Assembly (NCBI GenBank): GCA_918026815.1
Contig: CAKJVC010000160.1
Location: 466,268 to 530,267, forward strand
From: Chalara sp. BL73
Lineage: Eukaryota > Ascomycota > Leotiomycetes > Helotiales
Length of the DNA stretch: 64,000 bases
Direction: 5' to 3'
Both the position numbers and the translations under genes were made by a program. Below are positions 33,443 to 58,111 of the stretch, in pieces. Position 1 is the stretch's first letter, and each line of letters opens with the position of its first letter. The notes under the pieces are model-generated. The model was given only the letters and a program-made list of their open reading frames with translations. It was not told the DNA's origin and searched no databases.

Positions 33443-34934
33443 CCGCCGCAAGGCTAGAACAGTGAAAGCGATAGTGGTATCATAATATATATTGGCCCTA
33501 ATTCGCCATACTACACACCGCATGATATGATATTTTTACTTTACATACGTACAATAATTAATTAGCAATTTTATATCATATTACACTATACAGTAGTATT
33601 TCTACGTACTGCGTACGGTTACAAAACTGGTTTTAGCTATATATAGTATTACTACCGTATAGTAAGTTACCGTATTGGATTTTTATATTAATACTGAGTT
33701 TTTTTAAAGGAGTTTTATACTAATGCTATTGCCTTCACTGGTCCAAATACCGGATCTCCTTGGCTTGGTCGAGGCAATTCTGGACTGTAGATTCGCTGCT
33801 AATTGCAACTGGATCCTCTGGAACGGCCAGTCTCACTATTTCCTCTCCTTTCAGCGACTGAAAAACATTCGTCAAGGCTGTTTTATTGCCTCTCCTTCTA
33901 TTTTTTATTCGCTTCTCTGTCGGTGAGGCACGCACATTAGCCGTAAGAAGGCTGTGCAGTCGTTTCGAGAATTACTCTATCGTTCGATTAGAATACGCAG
34001 AAGCCATCGTAACTCTCCCTTTTGCCCAATGTGGGGTGCATTGAAGCCAAAAGTAGTCAGCCGTGACGGACGGAAAGCTCTCAAATATATAAAAACTGTG
34101 ACTGTACGCCTAAACTCAATTTGGTGTAGTGCACAGGGCCGATGCTCACCAGGATTATCGGCTATAGCAGCTCCATAGCAATGCCAAAGGAGACAACTAA
34201 CCAGCCCTTTCTCCTCCTAGAGGTGTTACCCTTCTGTCTAATAAGGCACGGCAGGTCTCCAGATTCTGCTCTACATGGTTAGAGTCAAGGTTAATAAAAG
34301 GCGACTAGGTTTCAATGCCTGGGGCAAATTTTAAAGAATAGCTTGTAAAAAGAATGCGGTTGAAGCAGACAATAATATAAAGAAGCTGAGTCCAAAAAGG
34401 GCTCTAGGTCGCGACACACCACGACAGTGATAGCATAACCATGATGAGTATGAGCGAAGTGATGACGACCGTACTTGACGCACATGTAAAAAAAGAGAAG
34501 GGTTTAAACTAATTATTCCTTAGGAAATCCGAAAGAGTCTAGAATATCATAAGGCTTCCCTTAGAGTAGCAAATCGATCATAAATTATCTCAATTACCAA
34601 AACCACTGGGAGCTAGAGTATGTAATTGTAACTGACTATGTGGACCGTCGATGCTTTATCTTCCCTCGAGGTACGCAACCCTATCCTCCGAGATATTCAA
34701 TTGAAAACGATCTTGGTATCTAAGTCACTGGTCACGTTGTCAAATCTAATCACGTATGGAAATGGTTTTCAGCTCGTATTAATATGGGGCTAGAGCCTGG
34801 GCCAGCTCGCTTGCGCTCCCCTGTCCCCCATTCTAGGCATCACTTTCCCAACAGTTGCATGTCTCGTCTTTCCATCGAAGCTTGCGATTGTCTCCATGAT
34901 TTCTACCAAGACTTGACCTCGAATAAGAGTCAAT
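33443..34934. other. AT-rich decayed DNA
   Basis: 33480-33720 is very AT-rich with many TA steps and short palindromes. 34270-34440 contains lysine-rich frame scraps that could be remains of a transposon. No intact gene. The last 100 bp precede the TPR-HET start. Confidence 0.45.
34820..34833 (+). repeat. 14-bp direct repeat, left copy
   Basis: CCTGTCCCCCATTC, identical to 39329-39342, placed 101 bp before the TPR-HET start codon. Confidence 0.6.
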
Positions 34935-37900
34935 ATGGCGGAACCCCCCCAAAGCCAAGCTGACAGGTTAACGGCGATCTTGAGAGTAGTGAGATCATAC
35001 GGGGGCGTCCAGCAGACACTCGCTTCCGGCGCATTGTCTCTAGAGGAAGAATTATTTCTCAGATCACAAATAGTGGACATGCTTATCCAGAACTACGACC
35101 AAGTAGGACAATATCACTACATACAAGATGCTATTCAGCACCTAGAGACGATTCTGCGTCGTGTTCCACGCGACTCCCCAGACCGTGCCAAGCATCTTGA
35201 CCGTTTGTCGTATGTAAGGATGTCAGAACATGTGGCCTCAAACTCACGACACGCCCTGGAAGAGGCTGTGTCAAATGGACGCCAAGCCAAACAACTGAGC
35301 GTCACTCATGATCTTCTACATCGCGACCCGAACGTGTATTTCACTATTCTGACAAACTTTGGCTACGCCCTGTCTCAACGGTACGCACTAACACTGCAAG
35401 CTCCTGATCTTGAGGAAGCCATCGTATGTGCAAAGGAGGTATATGAGCACGCTCCAAAGGACTCCAAGGAATACTACATGAATATCAATAACCTTGCGTC
35501 ACGCCTCCGCCTGCAGTATCGTCTAAGTCAAAATCTAGATGATATCAACGAAGCGCTGAGATTAATCAGGGAATTGCAATCGAGGACGGCTCCTGGTACA
35601 ATTGAGCATGATGTGGCCGCTGGACAGCTAGGAGTTATAAGCGCAGACAGGTTCAACCAAACCAAAGAGCTCCAAGACTTGGATGAGGCACTTGGGTACT
35701 GCAGGTCAGGACTCCATAGCTTACCTGCAGGCCACGAGGCAAGAGTACCTTCGCTCAGGCAGATTGTGCATCTATACAACGCAAGGTATGACAAGACGGG
35801 TGAAGAAGCCGACTTAAAAGAGCTTGTCTGCTACTCTGAAATCCTATTTCGCGCGATCCCGCCAGGCAACCCTTTCCAAGGCAAATATCTTCTCGATTAC
35901 ATGGGCAATCTCCAAAAGTTAGCAGATAAATCGCAGTCGCTTGACAATATTCGGAGTAATATACGACTAATTGAGTTACTCTTGACCAGTATGCCATCAA
36001 GCTACCCCGAGAAGAACCGGTGCCAAGCAGTTTTGGCTGATTTCTACTTGAGTCAGTACAACTTGTCTCAAGACCTTCAAGACCTTGTCACATGCGTAGA
36101 TTCTATTCACACCGCAGTGAGTAATTATAATAGAATGGCTGACGAAGGCGGCTCGTCACAAGGCACTGTTCAAGAATCCTGGCTTTGGGATCTTACACCA
36201 GCGTTGGGGCGGCTTGCTAAAGCACCACTGGACAACCCTATGAGAAAGGCAGCTGAGAAGGGATTGCCAGAGAAATTGCGCACTTGTCGCGAGTCCCAAA
36301 ACTCCGCATTTAGTGGGCTCAAGCAGTTCCACCTACAGAACGGCCCGCTGTTGGAAGTGCTTGCTGAGGCTATCAAAGCTGGGCGAACCCTTTCCGACGA
36401 TGAGATCAATATTGAGCTAACAAAGCTGAAGGAGAAGAAAGAGGCTACCGCTAGGAAACGTCCACAGAGAGGAGTGTTAAAATCGAACGATTACAAGACA
36501 GAACTTGGTCTTCGACAACTAGCAATAGATGAACCCAAAAACATCATAATGGACCTTAGTGGGCTCATGGGTAATATCCTAGGCTGGGAGGTAGACAAGA
36601 ACTATACGCCGGAGGAGTTTGCTGCCATGCACACAGAGATGGAACAAAAAGCACTAGATAAAGCCCGATCAGGGGGAAGGCACCCCAACATGCGACTGTG
36701 TAGCATGTGCCGAGATGAGGTGAAAGTACTGCAGCCGGCGGTGGACGGCTTTGAATTGACAGCAGAGAGTGCCTGGCTACCCTTCGGGAATTACTTTCAG
36801 CTCCGGCAAAGATGCAACTGCTCCATTTGTTCTCTCATTCTGTCTGTAATTACGACGAAGTCAGGCGCACTCCACCCGCGGCTTGCGGCCATAGATCGAG
36901 AGGTTCAAGGAATTCGCTTGAGTAGCGGCAGACTCTCGACCGGGGAAAAGCTGATGCGGTTTGATTATGGTATGAAACATGTTAGTGAGCTAAGGGTCTT
37001 GACGTCTCGAAACTACTCTCAGGCCCTTCGGCAAGCGTGGCAAGCAGATTCGCAGTCATCACTCTCAGAAATTCTTGATAATCACAATGGCCCAATCTAC
37101 GACCCGGGCGGCCAGCAAATTAACCGAAGCTTAATTAAATCGTGGTTGAATGACTGTGATAATAACCACAGCTCCGCCTGCAATCATCCGCGAAGTGGAA
37201 AACGGGCAGATACTGATATTAATCTAACCCTTATCGACGTCCAGGAAGAATGCTTGGTATCTGCGTCCTCTGATGCCAAGTATTTTGCCTTGAGCTATGT
37301 CTGGGGCCAGGTAGACATGTCTAAGACGCTCAAGTCAAACTATGATGAGCGAAAGAAGCCTCACTCTCTGGCGACGGTACGTTTTCCAAGGACGATCCGG
37401 GACGCAATGGCATTCATCCAGTCGCTTGGTGAGAGATATCTCTGGGTTGATGCCATCTGCCTGCTGCAAGACGATGATGCCCAAATGGCCCGCGACATTC
37501 CAAGAATGGATATTATTTATGGGCAGGCATTTGCTACCATTGTCGCGCTCGACGGAACCGATGCGGATGCTGGCTTGCCAGGAGTCTCGGCGGGAACAAG
37601 AGAGCCTCAAAAAATCACAACTCTCACGATTTCAGACAATTCGCCTAACCTCGATGACGATCCGGATAGCAAATACAGAGAGACGGCTAGTCTTATAGCA
37701 ACGCCGCGGCCGCTGCACCTAGCCTTGGAGCTCTCTCGGTGGAGCACTAGAGGCTGGATTGTGCAAGAGCATCTCCTTTCGAGGCGTTGCCTTTTCTTCG
37801 CGCCGGATGCTCTGTACTTTCAGTGTGGTCAAAATACCTTGAGTGAGGGCGGCGCCAACGAGGAGTTTCAAGCACTTATGTTGGACAGAACGCCTCTAAC

Positions 37901-39080
37901 AGATAGTCACGTCCTAAACCAGGCAAATCGTAACAATCCCTTGTCTAACCTGGCAGGTTTGTACGACCTCGCGCTGCGTGAGCGGCTCTCTAAGGCTTTC
38001 AATGCCTACGCAAAGCTCGTCGAGGTCTATAGTAGTCGCGATCTGTCCTTCAAATCTGATATTCTCAAGGCGTTTGGAGGAGTGTTTGCAGTACTTGAAG
38101 AACATTTTGACAGCGCAACCCTCCATGGACTTCCAGCTGTGGTCATCAGCCACGCCCTTCTATGGTCACCTGCGGCAAGGCTTCCGCGTCGAGGACGTCA
38201 GCTGCCATCATTTCCTTCTGCACTTACAACACCTGATTCAGAGTTCCCAACCTGGTCGTGGGTAGGATGGGATGGTTCTGTAGAATATCGCCTATTCGAG
38301 AATTCGAATGGGAGAATTGTCCTCCCCACGACAAGTGTAGCGGCTTATTATCAAGCGAGTAACGACCCTATCGCCGAACCCATACAGGAGACAAAAAGAG
38401 ACCTTGAGCCCATTCAGCCACAGCCTAGCAAGGATGATCAACAAGACATCCCCAGTGAAAGTACGGATGGCGATGATAACAAGAACGAGCCCCAGGATAG
38501 TCGTGTTCTCGCCAAAATAATTCCAGACCTGGTTCGTGGCAGTACCTGGTTTGTAGGAGCGGCGCAAACACCAGACAAGAGACAAGACTCTCACATTGAG
38601 ACCAAATTGCTACGTTTTACGGCTCGTACGGTTGCACTTCCAGCATTCGTTGTCGCGGTAGAGAAGGAATATTTAAGTTCTCAGTCCCAAGTTCATATTC
38701 GAAGTTCCCAGGCCGTCCGCCGCATTCTGGATCGCAACGGCAAGCACTGCGGGCTATGGTGGGAGCAGGCCGGGTACGGATATGTGGGATTAGGTATGAG
38801 TCCGGCGTCTGAGGCCAAAATTGACCTGCTGGAAATATCACAGTACGGGCCTGCGTATCGTCCCCGCAAGGGCCCTTACCTTGTCGAAGGTCCTATTAGC
38901 ATATTTGACAGTGATGAGTTCCCAGCTGTGGGACCTGAGAGTGGGCTCATCAATATCTTGGCGGTTGATTTGGACATGGGGCTTCCAGATGGGATCGGTG
39001 AACGATGTTCGGTGGCCGTGATACATTCAGCAGCATGGGAAGCGGCGAAACCACAGGAAAAAGAAGTCCGAATGGTGTAA
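34935..39080 (+). CDS. TPR-like/HET-domain fusion protein
   Basis: A single uninterrupted exon of 1,381 codons. Residues ~15-470 are helical repeats of the TPR type, with phrases such as LTNFGYALSQRYALTLQAPD, NLASRLRLQYRLSQNLDDIN and LYNARYDKTGEEADLKELV. These resemble the TPR arrays of fungal CHAT/TPR and NLR proteins. A charged linker (~490-520) follows, then C-x2-C (LCSMCRDE, ~586) and CNCSIC (~626), matching the N-terminal cysteine module of HET proteins. The HET core is at ~775-885: YFALSYVWGQ, RYLWVDAICLLQDDD, YGQAFATIVALDG. GWIVQEHLLSRRCLFF (~938) and FPTWSWVGWDG (~1104) follow. The intact frame argues for function. HET is a cell-death effector domain; here the TPR array could be the sensor or scaffold without a NACHT/NB-ARC motor. 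That role is inference. Confidence 0.88.
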   Translation: MAEPPQSQADRLTAILRVVRSYGGVQQTLASGALSLEEELFLRSQIVDMLIQNYDQVGQYHYIQDAIQHLETILRRVPRDSPDRAKHLDRLSYVRMSEHVASNSRHALEEAVSNGRQAKQLSVTHDLLHRDPNVYFTILTNFGYALSQRYALTLQAPDLEEAIVCAKEVYEHAPKDSKEYYMNINNLASRLRLQYRLSQNLDDINEALRLIRELQSRTAPGTIEHDVAAGQLGVISADRFNQTKELQDLDEALGYCRSGLHSLPAGHEARVPSLRQIVHLYNARYDKTGEEADLKELVCYSEILFRAIPPGNPFQGKYLLDYMGNLQKLADKSQSLDNIRSNIRLIELLLTSMPSSYPEKNRCQAVLADFYLSQYNLSQDLQDLVTCVDSIHTAVSNYNRMADEGGSSQGTVQESWLWDLTPALGRLAKAPLDNPMRKAAEKGLPEKLRTCRESQNSAFSGLKQFHLQNGPLLEVLAEAIKAGRTLSDDEINIELTKLKEKKEATARKRPQRGVLKSNDYKTELGLRQLAIDEPKNIIMDLSGLMGNILGWEVDKNYTPEEFAAMHTEMEQKALDKARSGGRHPNMRLCSMCRDEVKVLQPAVDGFELTAESAWLPFGNYFQLRQRCNCSICSLILSVITTKSGALHPRLAAIDREVQGIRLSSGRLSTGEKLMRFDYGMKHVSELRVLTSRNYSQALRQAWQADSQSSLSEILDNHNGPIYDPGGQQINRSLIKSWLNDCDNNHSSACNHPRSGKRADTDINLTLIDVQEECLVSASSDAKYFALSYVWGQVDMSKTLKSNYDERKKPHSLATVRFPRTIRDAMAFIQSLGERYLWVDAICLLQDDDAQMARDIPRMDIIYGQAFATIVALDGTDADAGLPGVSAGTREPQKITTLTISDNSPNLDDDPDSKYRETASLIATPRPLHLALELSRWSTRGWIVQEHLLSRRCLFFAPDALYFQCGQNTLSEGGANEEFQALMLDRTPLTDSHVLNQANRNNPLSNLAGLYDLALRERLSKAFNAYAKLVEVYSSRDLSFKSDILKAFGGVFAVLEEHFDSATLHGLPAVVISHALLWSPAARLPRRGRQLPSFPSALTTPDSEFPTWSWVGWDGSVEYRLFENSNGRIVLPTTSVAAYYQASNDPIAEPIQETKRDLEPIQPQPSKDDQQDIPSESTDGDDNKNEPQDSRVLAKIIPDLVRGSTWFVGAAQTPDKRQDSHIETKLLRFTARTVALPAFVVAVEKEYLSSQSQVHIRSSQAVRRILDRNGKHCGLWWEQAGYGYVGLGMSPASEAKIDLLEISQYGPAYRPRKGPYLVEGPISIFDSDEFPAVGPESGLINILAVDLDMGLPDGIGERCSVAVIHSAAWEAAKPQEKEVRMV

Positions 39081-43347: not shown

Positions 43348-45349
43348 ATGACATCTCAGGGCGACCGCTCATTACCAACAATCATCAGATTCCGAAATTC
43401 GCTAGCATGTGTTCCTTGCCGTTCTCGTCACGTGAAAGTACGTGTTCCCGCCACAGTGCGATGAGACTTGCTAATAAAAGAAGTGCGATGCCGCAAAGCC
43501 GAATTGTGTACGATGCGGAATGGACGGAAAAGCGTGTTTTTACATGAAATCCCGACGAGGAATGCGATACAAAGCCCCAGCACCTGATGAATCAGAAACA
43601 CAAGTCACCGTCGCAACATCCGCGCCAGCGCCACCACTTCTCCCCAAGGCGACTTCGTCCAAAACAACAAGTCCAGCATCGGACCTCTCAAATCAGCCCT
43701 CGCAGCTTTTGACACCTTGTTCAGCGACACCAGCGTTTCACTGTCCCCTTTCCCAAAAAAACACAGCTTGCCTTTCTAATAATTCTTCGTCACCACCCCC
43801 CACCAGCAAAGAGCCCTTACCCAAGCCATCCGAATCAAGCCTTGAAACTAACCTCAGCCTGTATTATACATTCTTCCACAATGCTCATCCATGGGTTGTC
43901 CCTCGTGCTCGGCTTGACCGCCTTGTTCAGTCCAGCAGATCGCAAATTGAAGAACTCTTAGCGGTTATGGAATATGTAGGCTCCACATATACTGCCGAGG
44001 GGCAATCCGAGTTTCTGCGCCAACGGGCTCTCAATTTGATGTCATTGCCTTTCCTACGAAAGACTGCTTTTAACGTGCAAGCTTTGCTGGTCCTAGCGGT
44101 TGCGGTTCATTCTGGTGGTGATTTCCAGCAGGCGAGAGCAACTCTTGATCGAGCGATCAGCATTGCGTTAGAGATCGGCATGCACTTTAAATCTTACGCC
44201 ACAGCAAATGCTCGTGGAGACCCGGTCATAGAAGAAAGCTGGAGAAGAACATGGTGGGGTATATTCGTGGTGGATGGATGCTTCGAAGCTACTCACAGGT
44301 CACAAACTTTCCGAACATGGCACATTCATGCCGATGTGGATCTACCCTGCGAAGAATTGGACTATGCAAAAGAGGTAAGTACGCTTTCCGTCGACTAGTA
44401 AGGTCATACTGATGGTTGTAAGGATATCCCACAGCCCCACACCGTCGCCGAGTATGAAGAGCGTGACTTTGCAGATGAAGAAATCATATTTTCATCCTTC
44501 GCATATCTTATAGATATCCTAAAGATCCTTGGATCAGTAATGGCAGTAGTTAACACCACGGGTTCCAACCCTGATTCCATAATTGACGACGCTGATTCCA
44601 GCCTCTTAAATTGGAAGCTCCACCTCCCAGATTCTAAGAAAGACGTTCTTCGCACCGACGGCGAGATTGATGAGCCACTCTTCCATGCACACATGTATTA
44701 TAACGTGTAAGGCTTTCCCCTCCAGTTAGGAGTAACAAAAAAGAGTTTGAGGAAGACGGGAAGACGGAAATTCGAAAATATTGTGCTGATGAAAAGCAGA
44801 ATCCAAGTTGTCCTCCACCGGCCACGCTCATGCCTTCTTCACAGCCCCGTCGAAAATACTTCACAATGTGCTCCACCATCCCCACCTTCACATGTTCCAC
44901 CTACAAAACAACATATCTACCATCTCTCCACCAAGAAAGCGCTCTCCGCCGCCGAAGCCGCGCTCACGATCTTCACGCTACCAACACCACTGATAAACCA
45001 TACACCTCTTGTCGTCTGCGGTGTTGCGCTCAGCATCCTGGCTTCGCTTTCGGCTTGTTCTTGGGTCTTAGATGGGAATGAGTATGAGGCGGCGAGGAAT
45101 AGGATACGCCTGGGGATCGGAACGCTGAGGGTATATGGCCGCACTTGGCCAGTAGGACAGCGGACCTTGATGGAGATTAAGAGCATTGCCCGAGAGGTAT
45201 TTCGCATGAAAGATGAGAGGAAGGTGGCTGAGATGGCAGCTGTAGATTTAAGTTTCCCAGAACTGGAGGGGTTTGATGAACAGAGCTATCTCGGGGATTG
45301 GCAGACTATGGAATACCTTTCCAGTTTGGATATAACTTCGATGGTATAG
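43348..45349 (+). CDS. Zn2Cys6 fungal transcription factor
   Basis: Four exons: 43348-43437, 43484-44374, 44423-44706 and 44800-45349. Phases fit; 604 aa. The first intron (46 bp) splits the zinc cluster: ACVPCRSRHVK from exon 1 and CDAAKPNCVRCGMDGKAC from exon 2, together C-x2-C-x6-C-x6-C-x2-C-x6-C. A basic linker follows (MKSRRGMRY). After a Pro/Ser-rich stretch (residues ~70-150) comes the fungal-specific middle homology region: LYYTFFHNAHPWVVPRARL, LRQRALNLMSLPFLRKTAFN, VLAVAVHSGGDFQQARATLD and EESWRRTWWGIFVVDGCFEA. Exon 3 joins to YYNVIQVVLHRPRS, the conserved helix of the family. It is a nuclear DNA-binding regulator; targets are unknown. No metabolic cluster is obvious nearby, although the cupin and reductase lie 1-3 kb upstream. 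Confidence 0.9.
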
Positions 45350-45990
45350 TTTCTAAAAAATTGCTTTATTACTATAAATCACAGCATAATTGCTAATCTA
45401 GTTCAAGAGAGATTTAAGACATCTAATTGCATCGTTTTATATATTTACAATACAAGACCGAAGGTTGTGTGTGTGACAGCGGTGAAAGCTGCTTGCTCAT
45501 GTATTGGGATCTTACTCAAGGCCAAGAGACCAAAGTGCACTGCCCCATTCCACTATTCAGGACAATATAGGGAAAAGGAATAAGTCCCGTGACCTCGAAA
45601 GCCCCATAATTTAAGCGAGCGAGCCCCTATATCCACCCTTAGACAACAGATATGTCTAGAACTCATGAAAGCACACTCAGAGGTATACTTGGGGTCGTCT
45701 ATTCTTTGATCTCTCAAATATGAAGATTATCGCACTTTTCCAAGCTTTAACAGAATTCTCATCTTTTTAGAAAGCGGATTGTTTCCGCAAGCGGTAAACA
45801 CTCCATTGTCCTCGACTCTTGATGACAACAAAGTCGGCGATGCCTTTGTTATCTACAAAAGAGCCCTGGGCAGCCCATTACCAAGGCCTCTCGTCCCAGA
45901 AGCTGTGCTAGTATTTTCGATGCGGATAAAATACGAAATTCCCGACGAGCACGATTTGTTCAGAAGTGGTAGACTCGAACAACCCTTTAG
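45350..45990. other. Intergenic, promoter of first VHG-repeat gene
   Basis: No other gene supported. A 97-codon frame at 45779-46069 overlaps the start of the next gene and looks like a shadow. Confidence 0.5.
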
Positions 45991-48900
45991 ATGGCATCAG
46001 CACCACCTCCACCTCCACATGGAGGACCGCCGCCTCCGTCCGGCGGGGGTAATTCCAATCAGCCGGTGAGCCGTGCGCCAGCCATGAGGATTCTTAGATA
46101 TGGTCCGGGCGGGAGAAGCAGGGTTGTCGAGTGGTCGAAGGCCAAGCCAGAAGAGATCGCCGCGTACATTAACGAGCAGCGCCAGAAATACCATCGCAAC
46201 CCCTCGACTAAACAGCGAGGAGACTACAACGTATTTGGTACGGAGTGGGATGTTCCGGTATCGCTCGAAGATGTCCGGAATAATATCATGAACGATCCTC
46301 AGCGGCCTAAGTATGATAGGTCACGCGGAAGGAATAGAGCCAAAATTGATACACCACGGGGAAGGCCCCTTTCGACAGACGCACCACAAACACCGAGCCA
46401 TGGTAGCTATGGAGGAGATACGACAGAAGCGTCATCTAGCGATTCTCAACAACAATCCCAAGATCAAATCCCTCCGCAATCTCGACAAACTTTATTGCAG
46501 AGAAGCACCACGACTCAGTCAATTGAGGAATCCTACAATGATGTGTCACAAATCCCCCTTGACAGAGATGACTATAATAAATCATACCGACACATTCTCG
46601 TTCGAGACAATGCACTTAACGAATGGAATCGCCACGCAGGCAATACCATACCGTATGTGGCAAGTGGTGGCTACCCACTGGAGGTATCGCAGTTCCTTCT
46701 TTCCATCGACCGCCGGATAAGACCTCACGTATCAGACGTAATAAACGGCCAGCGAGACCTCGTTACAGTGCAGGATTTCGTGAATGCCTCGATCGACAGC
46801 ATCCACACATGGACTGACGAGGACATTCAAAAAAGTCCACTTCTGCGTAACTTCGCGCCCACATGGATTTCTTATCTGCGCCGCGTGCTGCCACGACAGG
46901 ATAGAGAAAACGAGCCTCCCCTTCATCCATGCTTTTTTGCGGATCTTTTAAATGCCACCCAGTACCTGAAAAGCGACAGAGCACCGCAGGTATGGGAAAA
47001 CAGGCTACGTAATGGTGGCTATGAGTTTGGCCCAGGAAGGGCCGTTCAAAAACGGGCTATAGCTTCACGTAATATCGACTACGCACAATTGTACGACACT
47101 AACGATGTAGATGACTACGGGCAGCCCTACCTCCATTACCTCGCACGAGCCAGCCCGCAGGCGGAGTGGGATAGACACGCAGACCAGCCATTACTACCCA
47201 AAATCTCTGATATTGATCTATCGCACTTTTTGCGCGCTATCGACCGCCCCATAAGAAACGAGGTTGTGGTGTCGATGGCAGCGACAGCACGAAGCGAAAA
47301 TGTCATTACCGTGCAGCAATACATCCAGCAGTTTGTCGATAGTATAGTAGGCACGATCCACTCATGGAGGTCAGGCCGGGACCTCGGACCCGGACTGTTA
47401 CAATTTATAGACCCAAAATGGCGGTCAGCTTTGCAGAAATTCTTACCGAGACAGCGAATATACCCACCAGAGCCTCCTTTCTATCCGCTGTACTTTGTGG
47501 ATATGTTGAACGCCATAAGATACGGGGCCGAACTAGGCGAGTGGATTTGGAGGTTGAATCTGCACGGGCTGGAGTTCTCACTATCTACAAGAGAGATACA
47601 GCCGCTAATAGGGGGCCCGATACCTATCACAGACCAGCAAAAGCCACTAGTCACATCTGTTGGCCGTCAGCCCCGAATTACGCTTGTAGGGTATTTACAA
47701 AACCTACTTGAGGTAATAAGGAATCGAGACCGAGCCAACTATTCACCTGATGTTCATGGCTCTGAGGCCTTCTATGCATATCTTATCACAACAGACCCAA
47801 AGCTTGAGACAAGACGCGGAGCCACCGAAGCATTCCAAGATCGAGGATACGATCCTCAGATCAGCGGAACGCTTCACGAATTTTTTAATCCGCACACCCG
47901 TGTCACGACAGGGGATGCTGAGCAGGATACGAACCAAGGCTATGATCCTACTGTACATGGACCTCTTCATTACTGGCGAAGATGCGGACGGCCGACCACG
48001 GAGAGTCTTTTGCAGGAGTATGGAGGGCTTGGTTGGGACCCGCAAGTTCATGGAACCATCCAGCAGTGGAGTTTCATGGGCCGTCCAACCCGCGAAGAAG
48101 CCATGGCAGCAATCCAACAGGTGCGGGGTATCCGCGAGGGATATTATCCTCCAGAGCACGGATCAATTCACCAGTGGTTTGCACAGCATCTCAAGCCTGG
48201 TATCGAACGGTCACCACAGCCGCAAACTCCGGCGCAGGCGCAAAGAAACTCTAGACGGCCTGCTCCGACGCCATGTTCGGAATGTGAGAAGGACGGTTTC
48301 GGGCCGATGTGCGACAGGAAAAGGCCTTGTATTATGTGTAAGCGTTACAAGAAAGAAAATTTATGCCAGGACAGCTCGCAACCCACCCCATTCTCGCTTG
48401 GTCAGCCTTCTGGCTCACAGCAACAAGGTGAGTTCACCGTACCACAGCAGAGAATCCGCAGAAATGTTCGGATCAACTTTGATCTCGTCAGCGCCGACGA
48501 ACGAGATGATCTTTTTCAAACTATTGGTAAGCAAGGCTCTCCATCAAGCAATGCCACGGTCTAACTTTAGGTTTGTCAAGAGCAGCGTAGATTCGCCCCT
48601 CAGTTCAACAACGGCCATCCCGGGCAGATGCTCTGCGGTGTCTTAGCTTTGGAGCACGCCATCAACGCAAACAGGAGGTTGAGAGGGGATCAACGCCAGA
48701 TCACCCATCAAGAGCTTTTCAATCTTATATTCAACCCCACGTCAAGACAGCCAACGCCAGCATACCGGCGATGGATGGACCGTCGAACAAATGCTACCCT
48801 GAACAGACGAGTGCTGCTTGAAATATCAACATTGTCTGAAAGCCACATGCTAGCAATTCTTCAGATACTTGCTGAGGACCACGGCGAGCTGTATCGGCTG

Positions 48901-50448
48901 GGAGTGATTACCGAAGTTGGTGAAAACGTCGAAGCTCGGTTTGGCAATGAGGATGTTTCGCTAAGGGCAGAAATGCTGTCTACTTGGGATGGAGGGGACA
49001 TATTATGGGTTCACAACCAGAATGCTCATACTCAAATTGCGCATTGGCAAGGGCTTTCAGATACAAATGATCCTGTCGGCATACGGACGGTGCAAAGCTG
49101 GGGCTTTCAAAGGTCGGATCTTCCCGCAGCAGCGGAGCGGCTTTATCGCCGTAATCGAATCGCGCAAGAGATATCTGGCAATGCGCCATCTCAGTCCCGG
49201 GAAGCCTCTGAAGCCGCGAACAGGCAACCGCTAGTAGACGCGACAGAGATGATGGTGCAACTTTTGGCTCAGCACAATCGACAAGCCGAGATGGTGGGGA
49301 GACCGCCCGCGACATTTCCTACTGCGCAAGCAGTCTTACCGCAATCAAGTACGCCACAACGACAAACCCTGCAGAGTACACGAGATAGTGGCAGAATATC
49401 TGCTCCCCCATCAGACCCGAGACAAAATACGAGAAAGCGTAGAGCAGATGATAGCATAGAGGATAGTACACCAAAACGAAGACGACAAGGGCCTAGCCCC
49501 CGTGTGGATCAAGCACCTGATAAACCTTTTGATGTACAAGCTTACTTTAGGTCTCCAAACACGAGAGATCTTATGAACCACGCCGCCACGGCGATTGCAG
49601 CAAGCCCAGTACATCACTATAATCCGTTCGCATTTGACCCTTTCAGTAACAGTGGCAACGAAGAGCCGTTCGGCGCCGTTTCCGGCGAGGGCAATGTCAA
49701 TGAAAGACCAGAGGCCGATATCCTCGCCGAGCAACAAGTCGAAGAACCAGTTCCCACCGGATCGGGTTCGCATTTATACTGCCGGCAGGAGAACAATACG
49801 CCGATATGGGTATTGGAAGGATATCCGCGCGGGATAGATACCACAAACTGGGGAGCTTCAACCACGGCATTCGTGCGAGAGACCAGCCGATGCAAAGAGT
49901 TCAACCCCTTCAAACCAACTGAACACACCTTGGTGAACATGGGCCAGGCGCAAGGCGGCCAGCGATGCAAAAAGTCCAAACCGGGATTGCCATGTCAACA
50001 CCTCTGGCATGATGATAATACCAAAATGCTCACCTGCCGCGACTGTCGCGATGATGCAATCTGGAACCATTGGCCGGCACGAGCCAATGGGGGTTTTGTA
50101 GATTCTTCGTCGTACGTTGAGAACGCCAAACGATTTTATTGTTCTAGCTGCGCCGATTCCGTTGTTCGGAAACATCTTTCCCGCCGGAAATATGAGATGG
50201 CGAAGGGGACGTGCATCTGCGTTGACCAGCTAATGGAGAACTGGATATGCCGGGTGCACCGGTATCAGGCGAAGGTAGCGTGGTTGAAGAGAGACGATGC
50301 GATGATAAGGGAGGAAGCTAAGGATCCTAATTCTTCCATTCAATGCCCGGCTTGCAGGGAACGCACGCAGGAGCCGAGCTCAGGCGTCTGGATTTGTCGA
50401 TGTTGCGGGCAGGAGGTCGTTTCAATGGAGCGGCTTCGGAAGCTCTAA
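45991..50448 (+). CDS. VHG-repeat protein A: repeats, Cys6 zinc knuckle, putative cysteine-peptidase-like core, zinc ribbons
   Basis: Two exons, 45991-48526 and 48581-50448. The 54-bp intron (GTAAGC ... CTAAC ... GTCAAG) joins in phase; 1,467 aa. Family unknown to me. Visible parts: Pro/Gly-rich start; a basic motif (~32-113, IAAYINEQRQKYHRNP); a helical module present twice (~194-346 and ~362-530), each with H-x-L-x-R ... EW-x-RHA and a late W-x-x-R-L region; five ~30-residue repeats (~583-737), e.g. GWDPQVHGTIQQWSFMGRPT; a Cys6 knuckle at 762-792 (C-x2-C-x8-C-x5-C-x2-C-x8-C); then GQMLCGVLALEHAI with Cys864 and ILWVHNQNAHTQIAHWQGL with His1000, spaced as in papain/OTU-like peptidases. After a disordered, basic stretch the C-terminus has several CxxC pairs, the last CPACRE ... 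CRCCGQEV resembling a zinc ribbon. A nuclear or chromatin setting with ubiquitin-type proteolysis is speculation. Paralogous to the next gene. Confidence 0.75.
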
Positions 50449-51075
50449 TTAGACTACTCTGATGCTACTATCTCAAGAATTTCAGACAGAAGGAGATCGC
50501 TACACATGAATGCATCCAATGCTGGCGGGACAATAACATCTCTTGATGTCACTAATAATTTCAAAACATCCATAGTATCGATCTACCATAGCATTGACAG
50601 AACCCAAATTATAGTCATATCCACAAATACGGTAGCTCAACTGTAGATTTAGCTATATATATATAATCTAGAAAGTAATATCCAGCCTACCTCAATCCAA
50701 GCCCATAGAAATATCAAATACACTCACAAGTCGAGGTTCCAATTTGAAATTTCTAAGCATTGTCGACGCACAATCAGACCGAGCAAATTAGTAATTCGCC
50801 GGATCGTAAAAGAGCCAGGGCGCCGCAAACAATAGCAACTGCAAAGATAAACAAAGAGTCGGCAAAAGGACAATAGGGGTAATCATGTGGTGCTAAGCGA
50901 GCCAATCAGAACCCCCAATTGACCACAATACCGTCCTATTGACATGTTTCAATCGATCTTTGAGCAAACGTTTATAGAATCGAGGGAATTCTTTGTCTTC
51001 TTTGAGCGCAAGTACTCTTTGTAGAAAATGTTCGGACGTCGTTGTCAACTGCTGATTTTATAGCCCTGAGGCAAA
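50449..51075. other. Intergenic between the VHG-repeat paralogs
   Basis: 627 bp, AT-rich with a TATATATATA run near 50655. No gene. Holds the promoter of the second paralog. Confidence 0.5.
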
Positions 51076-54000
51076 ATGGACAGGTCCGCGTCCGATCGAG
51101 AAGTATCAAATAGGGAATCTTCGCGGCCATCAGGTCAGAGAGGACGTAGTCGCGCTCGATCTAGATCGCCCAATCTACCAGGCTACCAGGATGGCGCTGG
51201 TGACCAAGCTCCTGGCCGGTCTTTCGTGCAACCAGGTGCACAACATCCAGCTCCACCTGCTCGTCAACCTCCTGCTCAACAGCAAGCTATCCCGTACCTC
51301 CAGCCCTCACCCTCGGGTCAAGGGGTGCAATCCGTTGTTTCTTCGTACATGGGAGTGATTCCCCTCAAGAAACCCAACTTCAACATTGTGGTGAACGGCG
51401 AGAGAATCCCAGTTGAACGCGCATCGGCCGAAGAACTGCTTGATGCCATCAATGACTATGTCGACCGCCATGGATACCATCCCAATCGGTATGAATATTT
51501 CGACCGCAGGCCAAGGAGGCGTATGACTTTCCAAGACATAGAGAGCAATCTTGTAGACGATAGAAGACGCAGGGCATATGTTGATAATCAGCGGCGCTTG
51601 GCAGCTGATAGAGCGGCTGAGGCGGTGAGGAGAGCCATTGATGAGGGACCGCCGCTGTTAGAGGATCAATCGCAAGAACCGGACTTCGATGGCTATGGAG
51701 GACAGCATCGCCAATTCCCCCAATGTGGGACCACACAAGACAATGTAGTTGATGACAGTCCTTTTGTCAACAACAATGAATGGCAAGCAGCTACTCGGCG
51801 GTCACCATCACCCGTCCAGGAAAATCTATACGGTGATGGCGATTATATCGTCAACCCAGGCGACAATGCATGGGGCAATGGCGACAATGATGACCCTTAC
51901 AGAATATACGGCGCTGATGACGATGATGATTCAAGCAGCTCAAATCGCCAGCGATTACCATCTCCAGAATTGCCGGTGTTGCTCAGACCGCCGGAGGTGG
52001 AACGGCTGCTCGGTCGCTTAGGTAGTCCATATGAAGAGTATCACCGTGCAAGAAACCAGCATGACGGGCTGCCAGACGAGGAGTGGGCTCGATTTTACTG
52101 GTCCCTCCCTGAAGCTGCTCAAGCAGAGATATTTCAAGATGACGTACTGATAGAAATAATATTCCATGGTAAGACAGTAACAGACTATATTTCTGGAATC
52201 ATTGCAAAGATATTAGAGCATCCTCCTAGTGTGCCGCTAGAAGTATTCAAGAATATCCCGATAAGTCCTGACTGGAGGGACTTTCTCACAACCCTTGCTC
52301 AGCCTGGGGAGATAAAGCCATGGTATTGGGTTGATATCATGCACCACATAATGAGTGGGATAAGCCCCTTACAGTGGCAAACTCGGCTTGAGAGATTTCA
52401 TCTAGGAGTTTTTGACGATGGGTCCGTAGGATATCTCGGAAGCACAACATCTCCTCTATCGAGTCCTCCATCAAGTCCTCCAGAGGAGCTTACCCAGTTT
52501 GTTGAATTAGAGCTAGCCATAGTAAGGGAGCGAGAACTCGCTGCTCATTTGAGAAATTTGGCAAGGATGGCGAGAGAAAGGCCATCACAAATATTTTCTC
52601 CAGATGTGCATGGAACTATCGACCAATGGATCAACCTTCCCGAGAGGTTTCGAAAACTGGGCATTACCTCCAGCACGTCAAGGTCTCTGCTGATCCGGCT
52701 ACTCAAGCCGTACGGGTATGACTTGGATGTCCATGGCAATATGTTCGAGTGGGTAGCCGCAGGTATGCCTGATGGAAGGGGCCAGCGACAGCAGAATCCA
52801 GATTATTATCCTGCTGTGGTAAGTGCCTTCATCGTGAAAACAATCCAAAGCACTGCTAACTCTGTATAGCATGGAACTTTCGCACAATGGCAGTCTATGG
52901 GATCACCATCAAGGGAGAACCTTATTGGGTCTGCTTCACCTATGCGAAGAAGCGATAGATACGACCATACCGTTCATGGTAATTACTTTCAATGGGATGC
53001 CATGGGACGGCCATCCGTAAACATCCTCTTAGCAGCGGCGCGCCGAATGATCAACCTCCCCGTAATGACAAATTATGGTAATTCGCCGTCTTTCAACAGC
53101 TTCGGGGAATATGATCCAAACATGCACGGGACTGTGCATCAATGGTTTGAAGGTTTTCCTGATCCGATTGCTGAAAATCGCCGACAAAAACACCGTGAAC
53201 AGACTAAAACTCTAGTCTCAAGGAAGCGTGGGGGCCGAAGCATAAGAAGGAATAACCCCCTAGAGTTCTTACAAGATAGCCAGAACGCAAATAAGAGAGA
53301 AAGGGTGCTATTTCGCCGTACAAAAGTGGCATGCGTTGTATGCCAACAAAATGGTATTCCGCCTGAGCGATGCGGATTAAGGCGGCCTTGTCAGCGGTGC
53401 GTTCGCATAAAAACCCATAGAATATGCAAGGATGAGAATGAACAGAACGATCCATTTATGCCAGGTCGAAGATGGGCAAAGGAATGGGAGAGCCAATGGG
53501 AAAAGGAATTCTTCATAAGCAGTGAGTCTGACAAGGACAGCAACAATGATGACGATAATAACGGAAATGACGGCGAGGACGATGATGACGATGATTCCAG
53601 TGCCTCGGATGGGGGGTATGGTGCTGACATCGGCTATGGCGACGACATCGAGGCAATAGACGCCAACACTGAGTCTATTGACGACGTTCTAGTTGACGAC
53701 GGATCTAGCGTAGAAATAATTGGTCTGCATGAAAATTTAGCTGCCCTGAGAGAGGCCATTGGTGAGTTCTAATCTGCCATGGATGGATTCCATGCTAATA
53801 TCTATGGAAGACTATTGGATGTTTACGCCGGTATTCAATCATTCCGTTTCAGACCACTGTGGGTTCCAAGCAATGGCTGATGCCATCACCTCAACGAGAA
53901 GAATCTTGCTTGGTCCTGATGCGCAAGCTGTTTCGGGCCAAGACCTGCTGGAAATACTCTTCGAAGACCAGGGCAACAATGAACTTGTGCCGACAGAGGG

Positions 54001-54757
54001 ATTTCAGAATTATATAGATCAGCAGCCTATTCAGAGTCAGCAAGAGCTTCGCAGATCTCACACCATCAGCGATGAGCATTTTAGGGCCATATTGATCCTT
54101 CTCGGCCACGGAGAGGGCACGGAACCGTATCGGTTGGGAATCATCGCGAGAAGCGGTCCAGATCAAGAAGTGGTCCGAATATATACCATAGATCCACCAG
54201 GTTCCGAAGACGAGCCTATATTATGGATTGTAAATGATGGTTTTGAGGATATAGCTCCTGCAGACCTTGGCGCAATCAACCACTGGGAGGCACTTGGCAC
54301 TCCTCTGGCAAATAGTCCACATCCGGACACGGCATGGTTTAATAACTTGCGACATGCCATGGATTCTGTGAATGATTCGAAGATCACAATGGACGACGGT
54401 GCTCAATCTCCCCATGTGGGAAGTTCTGCCAATGCAGGAGAGGGTCCGTCTTCGGCGCCGACGCCTCGGGTTAGAAATGGGAAAAGAAAAGCTTCAAGAG
54501 ATGGCGCTGACGGAGAACAAAGTCCCAAAAGACACCGAACGTCATCCGCTTCGTCAAATGTGACAGTTCCGAGGCCAGCCTTCCCCGCTACTCCTTCTCC
54601 AAGCGACGTCTTGTATACGTCTTTAAATGACGTCGCAGACTCGCAAATCAATCAGTACGACCCAGACGCGTTGATAAGAGGTCAAATTAATCCTGAGAAT
54701 GATCCACTCGCAGTTGAACTTGAAAATGAGATGAGAAGGATGTTTGAAGATGGGTGA
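51076..54757 (+). CDS. VHG-repeat protein B: tandem paralog without the C-terminal zinc region
   Basis: Three exons: 51076-52818, 52870-53761 and 53811-54757. Introns are 51 bp (GTAAGT..TATAG) and 49 bp (GTGAGT..GCTAAT..GGAAG). 1,193 aa. The first intron interrupts a repeat unit, and removing it restores YYPAVHGTFAQW. The second sits at the same place as the intron in paralog A, and joining gives MFTPVFNHSVSDHCGFQAM, aligned with A. Order as in A: RS-rich start, basic motif (LLDAINDYVDRHGYHPNR, ~98-175), acidic stretch, one helical module (~318-451), five VHG repeats (e.g. RYDHTVHGNYFQWDAMGRPS), Cys6 knuckle (CVVCQQNG ... CGLRRPCQRC ... C; x9 in the first long gap), an Asp-rich tract, then the Cys/His core (Cys895 in DHCGF; His1036 in NHWEAL, after ILWIVNDG). 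It ends where A continues into zinc ribbons, so it is either a shorter natural form or truncated. Confidence 0.72.
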
Positions 54758-55092
54758 GATCCAAGAATCCATCCTAGAGATGGTGCTTCAGAGACGAGTG
54801 CATTCTGTCTGGAAAGGAGGGTGTGAAAATGAATCACAACCCATTCACAAACCTATCGCAGCTTTCGGTGCATCAAAGCTTGCCGACAAGATGTTCGTAC
54901 TTCCCGCCATAAAGAAATTCCAGAGAATTGAGCCTTCAAGTTCAGTATTTTAAAAGCCCCTGAAGCGTGTTCTTGGTCTCCAGGAAAGGTTGCAAGAATC
55001 AAGAGATAGGGTTGTATTTCTAGCTATGGCGTATAACACTGCAGGATACGCTGGCGCGACAATGATACTGAAGGCACTTCAAGACAGGTAGG
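54744..55092 (+). other. Possible coding remnant downstream of protein B
   Basis: One frame reads protein-like sequence (GEIQESILEMVLQRRVHSVW ... KLADKMFVLPAIKKFQRIEP) to TAA 54951-54953. It then continues past the stop (RVLGLQERLQESRDRVVFLA ... MILKALQDR) to TAG near 55091. It could be a lost C-terminal extension of protein B in another frame, or an independent small gene with a broken frame. Confidence 0.35.
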
Positions 55093-55715
55093 GCCGTGGC
55101 TCTAAAAACTATTTAAAGAATGATAGTTCATCGCATCATATGCCAATAGTGGCGGGCCACACGAGGTTGTAGGGCGGTGGGTGGAGAGACTGGTGAAAGA
55201 GACTGAGTTTAGACTAGGTATTGTCTCACAAAGCAGAGTGTAATGACGGCGAGTGGCGCCGTAGTCCCAATGATTAGTTGCCAACACGAGGTGGCGGTGG
55301 CTCAATATGGAAGCACTGATTAAGCAGAAGCTATGACGCGCCCCTAAATAGATACTCGAAAGGGTTCAAGTATACATACAAGACAGAATTTCCAGCCTAA
55401 TGCTTCGTATATCTTAGATGATCGAAAATAGTGGAAGATGAATGTAGCCTGTGTATCTCAAATTCAGATTTCGAGAATATAAATTTGTTGTGTGACCAAA
55501 GGAAAGCCTCCTCGCGGGCTGAGTAGAATATATTGAATCGAACAGATTATATCGCTATGTACAGCTATCATAAAACATTCATAAAGACAGTCGTATATCA
55601 TCAAAGTGGATTGTTCCTTTCGTTGCCGTATCCTCCTTTCACACAATTATTAGTAGCCATGAACTTTTGTCTGCCTAACGAAAATAGGACGTGTTCATCT
55701 CTTGAGCTGACCAAC
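55093..55715. other. Intergenic
   Basis: No supported gene; 3' flank of the neighbouring minus-strand gene. Confidence 0.5.
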
Positions 55716-57331
55716 TCAGATGTCGATTAATTTCGGGCGATGGCTCAGCTCGCTCTCTCTTTTCATCGCCTTATCTGTCTTATTCCTCTTCAAGAAGATT
55801 GAAAGCGCATTACTCTTCTTGTCCTTTCTTTCCTCAATCATTAACGGCTCCTTCTTCTTGCCTTTGCCTTTGACGCTTCCCTCGTGCATTGTCTTAGACC
55901 TCCTGCTCTTCCCACCCTCCGATGGCGCAATACGACTTGAGATCACAGTCTCACTGGTTGCTTTCATAGGGTTCCGAGGTCTAATCGTGGACTCACTGTC
56001 CGCCCTCCGCAACGTGCGTCCACTTCGACCGCTGACGACACTTTCCACCTCGACAAGCCTCTCTTCCCTTGCTCGGTCACGGATCCGCTCTTTTTCTGGC
56101 GCATAGCTTCAGGGGTGATGAACTCCCCATCAACGCTAGTAGCGACGGACCGAGCCTCAACCTCTGCAATACCGCGTCGCCAAGTATCAATTGTGCTGAG
56201 CTCCCTTTCGTCATACACAAGGGCCTCCTGCATCTGATGCGCCTCTTTCTTAACAGCCGCATCGTTCTGAAGCTTCTTAATAATTTTGAACCCTCCAAAC
56301 ATAACAACAGTCACGCCCACGGCAAGTCCTCCGGCAATTAAAAATTGTGGAGAGGCCAGCAGAGCAAAGGCGGCAGGTGAGCTGGTCTTCAGCGCTGCTA
56401 GAATACCCGGACCCATCTTTGAAAGGATATTAGACAGTTCCGCCAAGGTGAGTGCGACTGCAGCCATAGCTTCGGGATTAGCTTGCAGGTTCGTGATGAT
56501 AGCTGTGGCGCTGTTGTGCAGGCATTGCGCTTCAAGAAGCAAGGCATCAAGCTTGCTCATCGTTGTAGCCAGCTCCTGCTGATCTTTATTGGCAACAGCA
56601 GAATTGGCGCGAAGCTCAGGTGGCAAAGGTCCATAAGCAAGGTTCATATCTATCCCCTCGTCATCTTGAGCATGTAAGTCGGGTACCGAATTTACCCTTC
56701 TTGTGACCTGACTTGTATATGGAGGAGGCAGTGTCTCTACACGACTGAGCTGGCTAGCGTTGAAGTCGTTGGGTGAACGAGGAGATGGAAAATCAGTGTG
56801 TCGACGTACGAGGTATGGTGTGGATGGCTCTGCGTTTTCTATGTATGGTGAATGGTACGATTTTGGTGATCGGTGTGATCTATGTTCTCCACCATGGTGA
56901 CTCGAAGATCGTTTACTGTGTCTGCTCTTTCCACTCCGCGCACTGACTACACTTCCCTCACTGACCATTGAGAGATTTCGCATTGTCAATGGAGGGCGAG
57001 ATACGGCGTCCCTTGGGCCATACTCATCGTGTCGACGAGAACGGTGGGATGATCGAGAGTGTCTCGAGCTGGCGATTGACCGTGTTTTCCTCTCGGCTTG
57101 CGCCAACCTTTTATCAGATTTCTCCCTTATTCTTGCTTGGTGTTCCGCATGCAATGCCTCCTTCTTCTCTTTGTATGCATCCCTTGCATCCTTGAAGATG
57201 TTCGCAAGATGCTTGCCCTGCATCGAATTAGTAGACAGCTCCAAGCAAAGAGTTGACAATCGAGAGAGGCATACCGTGCTGACTACTTTGCCAGACTTAT
57301 TGATTATAGTTACTGTCTCCATAAGAGGCAT
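55716..57331 (-). CDS. Conserved-looking fungal protein with coiled coil, basic/Ser-rich region and central hydrophobic helix; one frameshift
   Basis: Exon 1 is 57331-57275. A 57-bp intron (GTATGC ... CTACTAATTCGATGCAG) is a multiple of three and so stays open if unspliced. Exon 2 is 57217-55716. The spliced N-terminus reads METVTIINKSGKVVSTGKHL, then a charged helix (FKDARDAYKEKKEALHAEHQ). A Ser/His/Arg-rich stretch, a PPPY motif and a helical region with a glycine-rich hydrophobic segment follow (FLIAGGLAVGVTVVMFGGFK, a possible membrane anchor). At 56091-56095 five A (on the coding strand) stand where six would keep frame. In the shifted frame the sequence continues as charged, low-hydrophobic protein (ERIRDRAREERLVEVESVVS) to a stop at 55716, about 519 aa in all. 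Without the shift it ends at 55964 (455 codons). Function is unknown. A consensus error or a real mutation are both possible. Confidence 0.7.
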
Positions 57332-58111
57332 GATGAAAGAGTTGTGTCGAAGACCAGCTTCGATGCTTTGTGCTATTGTCCCAATTCCAATGTTGCGGTG
57401 AGAGAGATCGAGATACCGACGCCAGCATGAATCATATATGCGAAAAGATCCATACTGTTCCGGTAACTTCGGTGTTAGATCCCGCGCAGGCTGAGGCCGT
57501 TCTTGAGGAATGGCTATGGTTTGAGACTTTTCAAAGCATCGCGCTCAAATAAGTCTGGCGCTGAACCAATGGGCCAAAGATCTTCATGGTCTCAGGAAAC
57601 ATTGAATTGCATGGAAATCTTTCGGGTTTATGAGAATCATTGGAATGTGTAGACCTAATTTGAAGCGATTGACAGCGCATAGGTCAATTGACAAAGGGCC
57701 TGTTTCGTTTATAGCAAGTACACAGATAAAGATGATGTATGCTTCTACGTGATTAGAACTTGAAGCAGTTGGTCCTTGTTTCTCTAAGTTCAGAGACACA
57801 TTTGAGTCAGCTCTGCTACATCGAGGACAAACGTAGCTGCTTGTAACAGCCTGAACTGTTCATAAGACGTCGTACCTTGCGTAAGTCGGTTACGTGTACG
57901 TCACCTTTGAAAATGATGAAATATGATTCGGGAGTCGGATGGTGGCGCATTCTCGCAACGCCCTGATCAACATCAAATGTGAGCCGAAGAGGGTCAAGCC
58001 TCAATTACCCCTCCAAGCTGGAAGTCACTCACAAGATACTTCTCCCCCACCACCACCATCATCATCACCACCCACCAAATATATCTGTCTGCAGCTCTCA
58101 AAATCTCTCTC
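57332..58111. other. Divergent intergenic region
   Basis: 780 bp between the preceding minus-strand gene and the phosphoserine phosphatase gene. Ends in a CAC/CAT repeat. No gene supported. Confidence 0.5.
58048..58073. repeat. (CAC/CAT)n microsatellite
   Basis: Trinucleotide run of mixed CAC and CAT in the 5' leader of the phosphatase gene, about 40 bp before its start. Confidence 0.8.

Follow-up and report, generated by a model that had tools for sequence, protein, structure and literature searches.

Two large adjacent genes on the same strand of a contig from the fungus Chalara sp. BL73 (Ascomycota, Helotiales) raise the question of what their products might do, and whether they represent an undescribed protein system, which a sequence-only reading had held plausible. 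Here we report that these genes, A and B, form together with a third gene, C, a real orphan family, which is a modest discovery; "protein system" goes too far, since what was found is a small paralogous family with neither partner genes nor a mechanism. Gene C, a relative in another fungus (P0001), the likeness of a six-cysteine knuckle to that of Pho7 and a duplicated helical module in A are new relative to that reading. The window refers throughout to the whole stretch of DNA that was analysed (64,000 nucleotides), and the gene models within it are as follows.

45991-50448, plus strand: gene A, exons 45991-48526 and 48581-50448, modelled from the open frame, splice sites and homology to P0001 and gene B
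48527-48580, plus strand: gene A intron, 54 bp, phase 1, GT...AG
51076-54757, plus strand: gene B, exons 51076-52818, 52870-53761 and 53811-54757
52819-52869, plus strand: gene B intron 1, 51 bp, GTAAGT...TATAG
53762-53810, plus strand: gene B intron 2, 49 bp, phase 1, at the position of the gene A intron

The products comprise, as first described, 1,467 aa (gene A, one intron) and 1,193 aa (gene B, two introns), and both frames are open, with no internal stop in either gene. The introns of A and B are predicted from sequence and homology. Two acceptors were tried for the gene A intron, and only that at 48580 keeps the frame; for gene B intron 2 there are three frame-preserving acceptors (49, 91 and 109 bp), and the 49-bp one was taken because it restores the F-x-P domain start common to A and C. 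The gene A intron and gene B intron 2 then split a codon four residues upstream of the F in a common F-[A/T]-P, and the earlier statement that they agree in place and phase holds. We consider it extremely unlikely that A and B are artefacts of gene modelling or assembly. Such an explanation could point to intron calls resting on sequence and homology rather than RNA, and to homopolymer indels on contig C49, where part of the locus recurs almost identically, but P0001, from another fungus, is 87% identical to A across residues 18-1467, A, B and C are homologous to each other, and the coding frame ranks top of six by codon usage for A as well as for B.

A comparison of A with B (BLASTP) gave E-values of 1e-21 for the repeats and knuckle, 4e-10 for the C-terminal domain and 0.001 for the N-module; these significant values and the common intron position and phase bear out the claim that the pair arose by duplication. 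Common to both genes are the N-module, five HG...W repeats, the six-cysteine knuckle and the C-terminal domain X, and for these the module order proposed earlier stands, but the helical module is weak in B and the last Cys/His-rich domain is present only in A. Gene C, on contig C60 of the same genome, is a third paralog that carries the N-module and two X domains, lacks the knuckle and the HG repeats, and has an intron in the same place and phase as A and B; the genome has at least three family loci (A, B and C).

The sole protein match, obtained in two of three large protein searches (approximately 8,000 candidates scored in each), was P0001 (B0O99DRAFT_721386, a hypothetical protein of Bisporella sp. 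PMI_857, Helotiales). It has the same modules as A and is itself uncharacterised, and a literature search for B0O99DRAFT found no mention of it. The P0001 model differs from A in that the end of the knuckle gives way to residues that look like a translation of the window in an alternative reading frame, and in a C-terminal Cys/His domain that is 12 residues short; apparently, P0001 is mis-annotated through the knuckle. A gene B query (region 340-1060) did not retrieve P0001 although their pairwise BLASTP E-value is 5e-17, and therefore the protein search misses relatives of approximately 26-28% identity. A, B and C apparently constitute a small, lineage-restricted family, which may be wider than the distribution seen.

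For most of the protein, searches of Pfam, NCBIfam and PDB sequences returned no characterised family, in agreement with the first reading. Matches below curated cut-offs or with weak E-values were taken as chance, the strongest being DmmA-like_C in the A C-terminal segment (E 0.0011; 19.3 bits, cut-off 27.4), WRW in the A repeats (E 0.018), CoiA_N, DUF6197 and UBX in the B N-module (E 0.031, 0.034 and 0.084, respectively), EspG in A domain X (E 0.039) and CDC10 with the X profile (E 0.81). The modules that precede the knuckle are:

46084-46320, plus strand: N-terminal module of A (residues 32-110), matching B (E 0.001) and C (E 7e-4) weakly but significantly
51379-51582, plus strand: N-terminal module of B, 40% identical to that of gene C (E 9e-17)
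46615-47037, plus strand: A helical module copy 1, internal duplication, helices in a very low-confidence model
47158-47583, plus strand: A helical module copy 2, internal duplication
52090-52410, plus strand: B helical region, weak likeness to the A module (z 2.5-3.4 in shuffles)
47737-48192, plus strand: five HG...W repeats of A, from motif counts against shuffles
52591-53157, plus strand: five HG...W repeats of B, with intron 1 inside the repeats

The two helical copies in A are 34% identical (E 7e-20). A helical module had been ascribed to both genes; it occurs twice in A, but in B it is seen only weakly, with z-scores of 2.5 and 3.4 (scores reached by 9/300 and 2/300 shuffles, respectively). 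Starts of a loose HG motif number seven in A and six in B, where shuffled sequences average 0.28 and 0.33 (maximum 4; 2,000 shuffles each). The five repeats were recovered in both genes, but the exact "GRP" ending given for them occurs in A3, A4 and B4 only.

The knuckle follows the repeats:

48271-48372, plus strand: A Zn2Cys6-like knuckle, C-x2-C-x8-C-x5-C-x2-C-x8-C; the A/B profile matches Pho7-type domains
53329-53436, plus strand: B Zn2Cys6-like knuckle, C-x2-C-x9-C-x5-C-x2-C-x8-C; Pho7 DNA-binding domain, E 0.0097

All six cysteines align between A and B, with the order CxxC-C-C-xx-C-C kept. An A/B profile of repeats and knuckle had two PDB matches at E ≤10, both of them Zn2Cys6 DNA-binding domains (6o19, Pho7, E 0.03; 6e33, named C27B12.11c, E 0.052), and the B knuckle alone had four (6o19, E 0.0097; 6e33, E 0.01; the next, E 1.2). 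We take C27B12.11c to be Pho7 as well, and 6e33 and 6o19 align the same residues to the B knuckle. Conversely, no Pfam family, the Zn2Cys6 model included, matched either knuckle segment even at E 10. The A and B knuckles share with Pho7/Gal4-type clusters the six cysteines in a CxxC...C-x5-CxxC...C arrangement. Pho7, too, is without the lysine through which Gal4 touches DNA bases (PMC5559640); according to the same source loop 1 of Pho7 has six residues (C295 to C302), while that of A has 8 and that of B 9. The last loop likewise has 8 residues against 6 in Pho7, and loop 1 has little basic charge (one basic residue). The "divergent Cys6 knuckle" of the earlier reading can hence be kept for both genes and refined: judged by its sequence, it resembles a divergent Zn2Cys6 cluster, closest to that of Pho7.

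Together with NLS-like clusters further downstream, this likeness might suggest that A and B are conventional Zn2Cys6 transcription factors whose accessory parts are atypical. We regard this as unlikely; the knuckle is internal and its loop 1 long, Pfam finds no Fungal_trans domain, and gene C has the N-module and X without any knuckle.

Domain X and the regions that follow it are located at:

48586-49062, plus strand: A domain X, with Cys864 (codon 48634) and His1000 (codon 49042)
53813-54301, plus strand: B domain X, with Cys895 (codon 53858) and His1036 (codon 54281)
49432-49488, plus strand: A bipartite NLS-like basic cluster, from a sequence pattern
54479-54541, plus strand: B bipartite NLS-like basic cluster, from a sequence pattern
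49888-50427, plus strand: A-only Cys/His-rich C-terminal domain, ending in a zinc-ribbon-like C-x2-C...C-x2-C, with sub-threshold eL43 matches

A, P0001 and B all have the Cys/His pair of X, but neither X copy of gene C has either member (Thr/Arg and Ser/Cys instead). X has been retained twice in C without the pair, and therefore a non-catalytic role is enough for family membership. OTU peptidases have the pattern C-x-x-x-A-[LM]...H-Y, which C-G-x-x-A-[LM]...I-L-W...H-W in X resembles. X could accordingly be thought of as a highly divergent papain/OTU-like (deubiquitinase-like) cysteine peptidase, active in A and B and a pseudoenzyme in C, where both residues are missing together in each copy. 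Both AlphaFold models are of low confidence and too poor to rely on; that of X has five helices followed by three strands. Its Cys sits in the first helix and a His-aromatic comes later, an order that resembles OTU/papain-like peptidases, but the His lies outside any strand. Moreover, the two residues were selected post hoc, and no likeness in sequence, profile or fold was detectable: no Pfam peptidase, including OTU (PF02338), matched any of the five X domains; a PF02338 search of the genome itself gave four loci, with A, B and C not among them; the X profile found no relative among PDB sequences (best, CDC10 as above); and Foldseek with the X model gave no match at E 0.001, with no OTU/papain-like chain among the best 50 of 81 Foldseek rows or the four VIA rows obtained with this poor query model. 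With hhalign, X against an OTU profile built only from the four OTU sequences of this genome scored 14.5, which is less than the reversed control reached (16.1) and less than the 95th percentile for 100 column shuffles (16.4; median 11.7, maximum 18.1). A peptidase role for X is unsupported, and we hold this identity to be unlikely. It is very unlikely that the family represents a new nuclear enzyme class of fungi, in which the HG repeats and a Zn2Cys6-derived cluster would tether a cysteine peptidase-like X to DNA or chromatin, and A and B as active members would act together with C as a pseudoenzyme.

In A, B, C and P0001 alike, a bipartite basic cluster lies C-terminal of X. There are further matches to the pattern in B (at residues 147 and 707) and in C (at residue 151), and therefore it is not specific. 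The final Cys/His-rich domain (approximately 180 aa) had been assigned to both genes and is in fact confined to A; its C-x2-C...C-x2-C end is like an eL43-type zinc ribbon, but with sub-threshold E-values of 0.31 to 2.1 this probably reflects shared spacing alone.

The surroundings of the locus bear on whether the family could be part of a genetic-conflict or self/non-self repertoire, or else derive from a mobile element, as its cargo or as a domesticated remnant. Its apparently narrow distribution, the partial C49 copy and two HET-domain genes in the window (2181-4001 and 34932-39077) are compatible with this, as are, for cargo of a Starship-type element, DUF3435 (captain-like) pieces on C60 (539435-540775), on the same strand as gene C and approximately 131 kb from it. 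However, fungi of this kind commonly have HET genes; none of at least 43 DUF3435 match pieces is on C139 or C49, the contigs with A and B; no ungapped direct or inverted repeats ≥20 bp, such as terminal repeats, were found in 44500-57600; the base composition of the A/B locus resembles that of the neighbouring DNA; the family loci found in the genome are three, as a lower bound; and viral-contig scans with X (21 stretches matched) and with repeats plus knuckle (338 stretches) confirmed no relative. A bacterial/archaeal scan with repeats plus knuckle matched 11 stretches, none confirmed, and scanning the window for Rfam families and tRNAs gave no match. We judge such an origin highly improbable.

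The reading we tentatively prefer, at slightly less than even odds, is that A and B arose by tandem duplication within a small, apparently lineage-restricted family whose products would be nuclear zinc-binding regulators or scaffolds, with X binding a partner. The bipartite basic signal after X would bring A, B and C to the nucleus, the divergent Zn2Cys6-like cluster and adjoining HG repeats might anchor A and B to DNA, to chromatin or to some partner in the nucleus, and X, the domain that defines the family, would be the effector that binds a further partner. In favour of this reading are the paralogy of A, B and C, their common intron, the six cysteines kept in both knuckles, the two Zn2Cys6 matches in PDB, the basic cluster that recurs after X, and the two X copies of C that have no Cys/His pair. 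Against this nuclear reading stand the absence of a Pfam Zn2Cys6 match at E 10, the long loop 1, a gene C without knuckle and repeats, the non-specific basic pattern and the poor structure predictions.

Large multi-domain orphan proteins mostly stay "hypothetical", whereas three paralogs with a common intron, an 87%-identical relative and a recognisable zinc cluster make a coherent, testable family. If X is enzymatic, the family would link fungal protein processing with a zinc cluster of a DNA-binding type; otherwise it would still be a clear example of how a nuclear protein family expands through tandem and internal duplications.

Genes A and B lie in tandem on contig C139, to which the window belongs, and a third paralog, gene C, was found on contig C60 of the same 58.7-Mb genome (199 contigs). 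The gene models and annotated neighbours are as follows.

Window 2181-4001 (-): HET-domain (heterokaryon incompatibility) gene, PF06985, E 8e-29
Window 34932-39077 (+): HET-domain (heterokaryon incompatibility) gene, PF06985, E 6e-32
Window 43478-44395 (+): Fungal_trans regulator, upstream of gene A
Window 45991-48526, 48581-50448: gene A, two exons, 1,467 aa, no internal stops
Window 51076-52818, 52870-53761, 53811-54757: gene B, three exons, 1,193 aa, no internal stops
C60:406419-408747 (-): gene C, model of 758 aa, one 52-bp intron

The coordinates and lengths of A and B in the sequence-only reading proved exact, and in a codon-usage comparison based on seven other open frames of the window the proposed frame of each ranked first of six. 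That A and B arose by duplication was supported: the open frames are intact, BLASTP aligned the two proteins over the repeats and knuckle (79/299 identical, E 1e-21), the C-terminal domain (50/179, E 4e-10) and the N-module (30/104, E 0.001), and the sole intron of A and intron 2 of B share position and phase (phase 1), falling in the codon four residues ahead of the F in the common F-x-P.

Using B as query in the own-genome search identified gene C through its N-module (E 9e-16) and two C-terminal-domain matches (3e-13 each). Its N-module is closer to that of B (40% identity, E 9e-17) than to that of A (E 7e-4) and two domain X copies come after it, the second preceded by an intron with position and phase as in A and B; the HG repeats and knuckle are absent from the model. 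The 3' end is uncertain because an additional basic open frame follows (L033:3025-3918, minus strand, on the stretch after gene C); it holds further basic clusters and may be a 3' exon of the gene. Own-genome protein searches returned as family loci only A, B, C and a copy on contig C49, counts that are lower bounds.

The N-module (approximately 70-80 aa) is common to A, B and C. A holds two copies of the helical module (34% identity, E 7e-20, z 25), which is weak at most in B (z 2.5 and 3.4), and a Cys/His-rich C-terminal domain is present in A only. Both A and B carry five HG...W repeats, and a loose HG motif was counted 7 times in A and 6 times in B vs shuffled means of 0.28 and 0.33. These repeats align in the same order, and the five-unit array therefore probably predates the duplication. 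In a structure model of exon 1 of very low quality (pLDDT 36), the repeats contain helices.

The knuckle reads C-x2-C-x8-C-x5-C-x2-C-x8-C in A and C-x2-C-x9-C-x5-C-x2-C-x8-C in B, and was not recognised by Pfam. A two-sequence profile of repeats and knuckle had 6o19 (Pho7; E 0.03) and 6e33 (named C27B12.11c; E 0.052) as its sole PDB matches at E ≤ 10, and the B knuckle alone matched the same two entries at E 0.0097 and 0.01, the next of four matches being at 1.2. PMC5559640 places the Pho7 cysteines at C292, C295, C302, C308, C311 and C318, and describes Pho7 as lacking the base-contacting lysine of Gal4. Judged by its sequence, the knuckle looks like a divergent cluster of the Zn2Cys6 type, and it is the one identifiable module of the family.

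Searches of 5.8 billion proteins with three queries gave a single match, from two of them: P0001, hypothetical protein B0O99DRAFT_721386 of Bisporella sp. PMI_857. Bisporella is a genus of Helotiales. P0001 is 87% identical to A across A residues 18-1467, with a knuckle interrupted after C-I-M by S-R-N-P-P-H-S..., a stretch resembling the window read in another frame (ORF 47720-48646); the public annotation therefore very probably contains a false intron, mis-spliced through the zinc knuckle. B as query had no match, and these searches revealed no annotated B relative in Bisporella sp. PMI_857. The distribution of the family is likely narrow, short of proven because the B search also missed P0001, to which B aligns pairwise at E 5e-17.

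Domain X (approximately 160 aa; one each in A, B and P0001, two in C) has 16 invariant columns across the five sequences, including F-x-P, H-x-x-A-x-L, L-G-x-I, I-x-W and W-x-x-L. A Cys (residue 864 in A, 895 in B) is followed by a His (1000 in A, 1036 in B), an order as in papain-like or OTU-like enzymes, and a peptidase was considered. The pair is replaced in both copies of C (Thr/Arg and Ser/Cys), and support for a peptidase came neither from Pfam on the five sequences, nor from a PDB profile search, nor from Foldseek or VIA searches with a low-confidence model (pLDDT 43), nor from hhalign against the OTU domains of four loci in this genome, where the score of 14.5 compares with 16.1 for the reversed control and with a median of 11.7 and a 95% point of 16.4 for shuffles. 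X is therefore not assigned as a peptidase, and partner binding is the more economical reading. After X, the four proteins A, B, C and P0001 all carry a bipartite basic cluster, a pattern that is matched at two other places in B and at one in C.

Pfam matches were obtained for 6 of the 10 scanned open frames of the window, namely the two HET-domain genes, an asparaginase, an alpha/beta hydrolase, a zinc-binding dehydrogenase and the Fungal_trans regulator, whose frame starts with a partial canonical-looking zinc cluster. A 526-aa open frame at 55967-57544 (-) has no Pfam match and contains a hydrophobic segment. Ungapped repeats of at least 20 bp were absent from window 44500-57600. The genome holds at least 43 DUF3435 match pieces, on 15 contigs, many with stops, representing captain-like, mostly decayed elements; none of these 43 is on C139 or C49. 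Pieces on C60 share the strand of gene C and lie approximately 131 kb away from it, and gene C could therefore conceivably be mobile-element cargo by origin.

The first 8,559 bp of C49 (426 kb) match window 48868-57427 at 99.8%, and the two diverge past 57427. This stretch may represent a haplotype, a segmental duplication or an assembly overlap; eight of the differences are single-base indels in homopolymers, so that an unpolished haplotype or overlap may be a better account than a genuine second copy.

The module order, homology and cysteines are observed features. The sequence-only observation is confirmed, and its interpretation holds in part: the genes form a real, small and apparently narrow family, for which the term protein system says too much. 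Most likely, the basic cluster would carry the products of A, B and C into the nucleus, A and B would dock through the zinc cluster together with the repeats, and X would let all three engage a partner.
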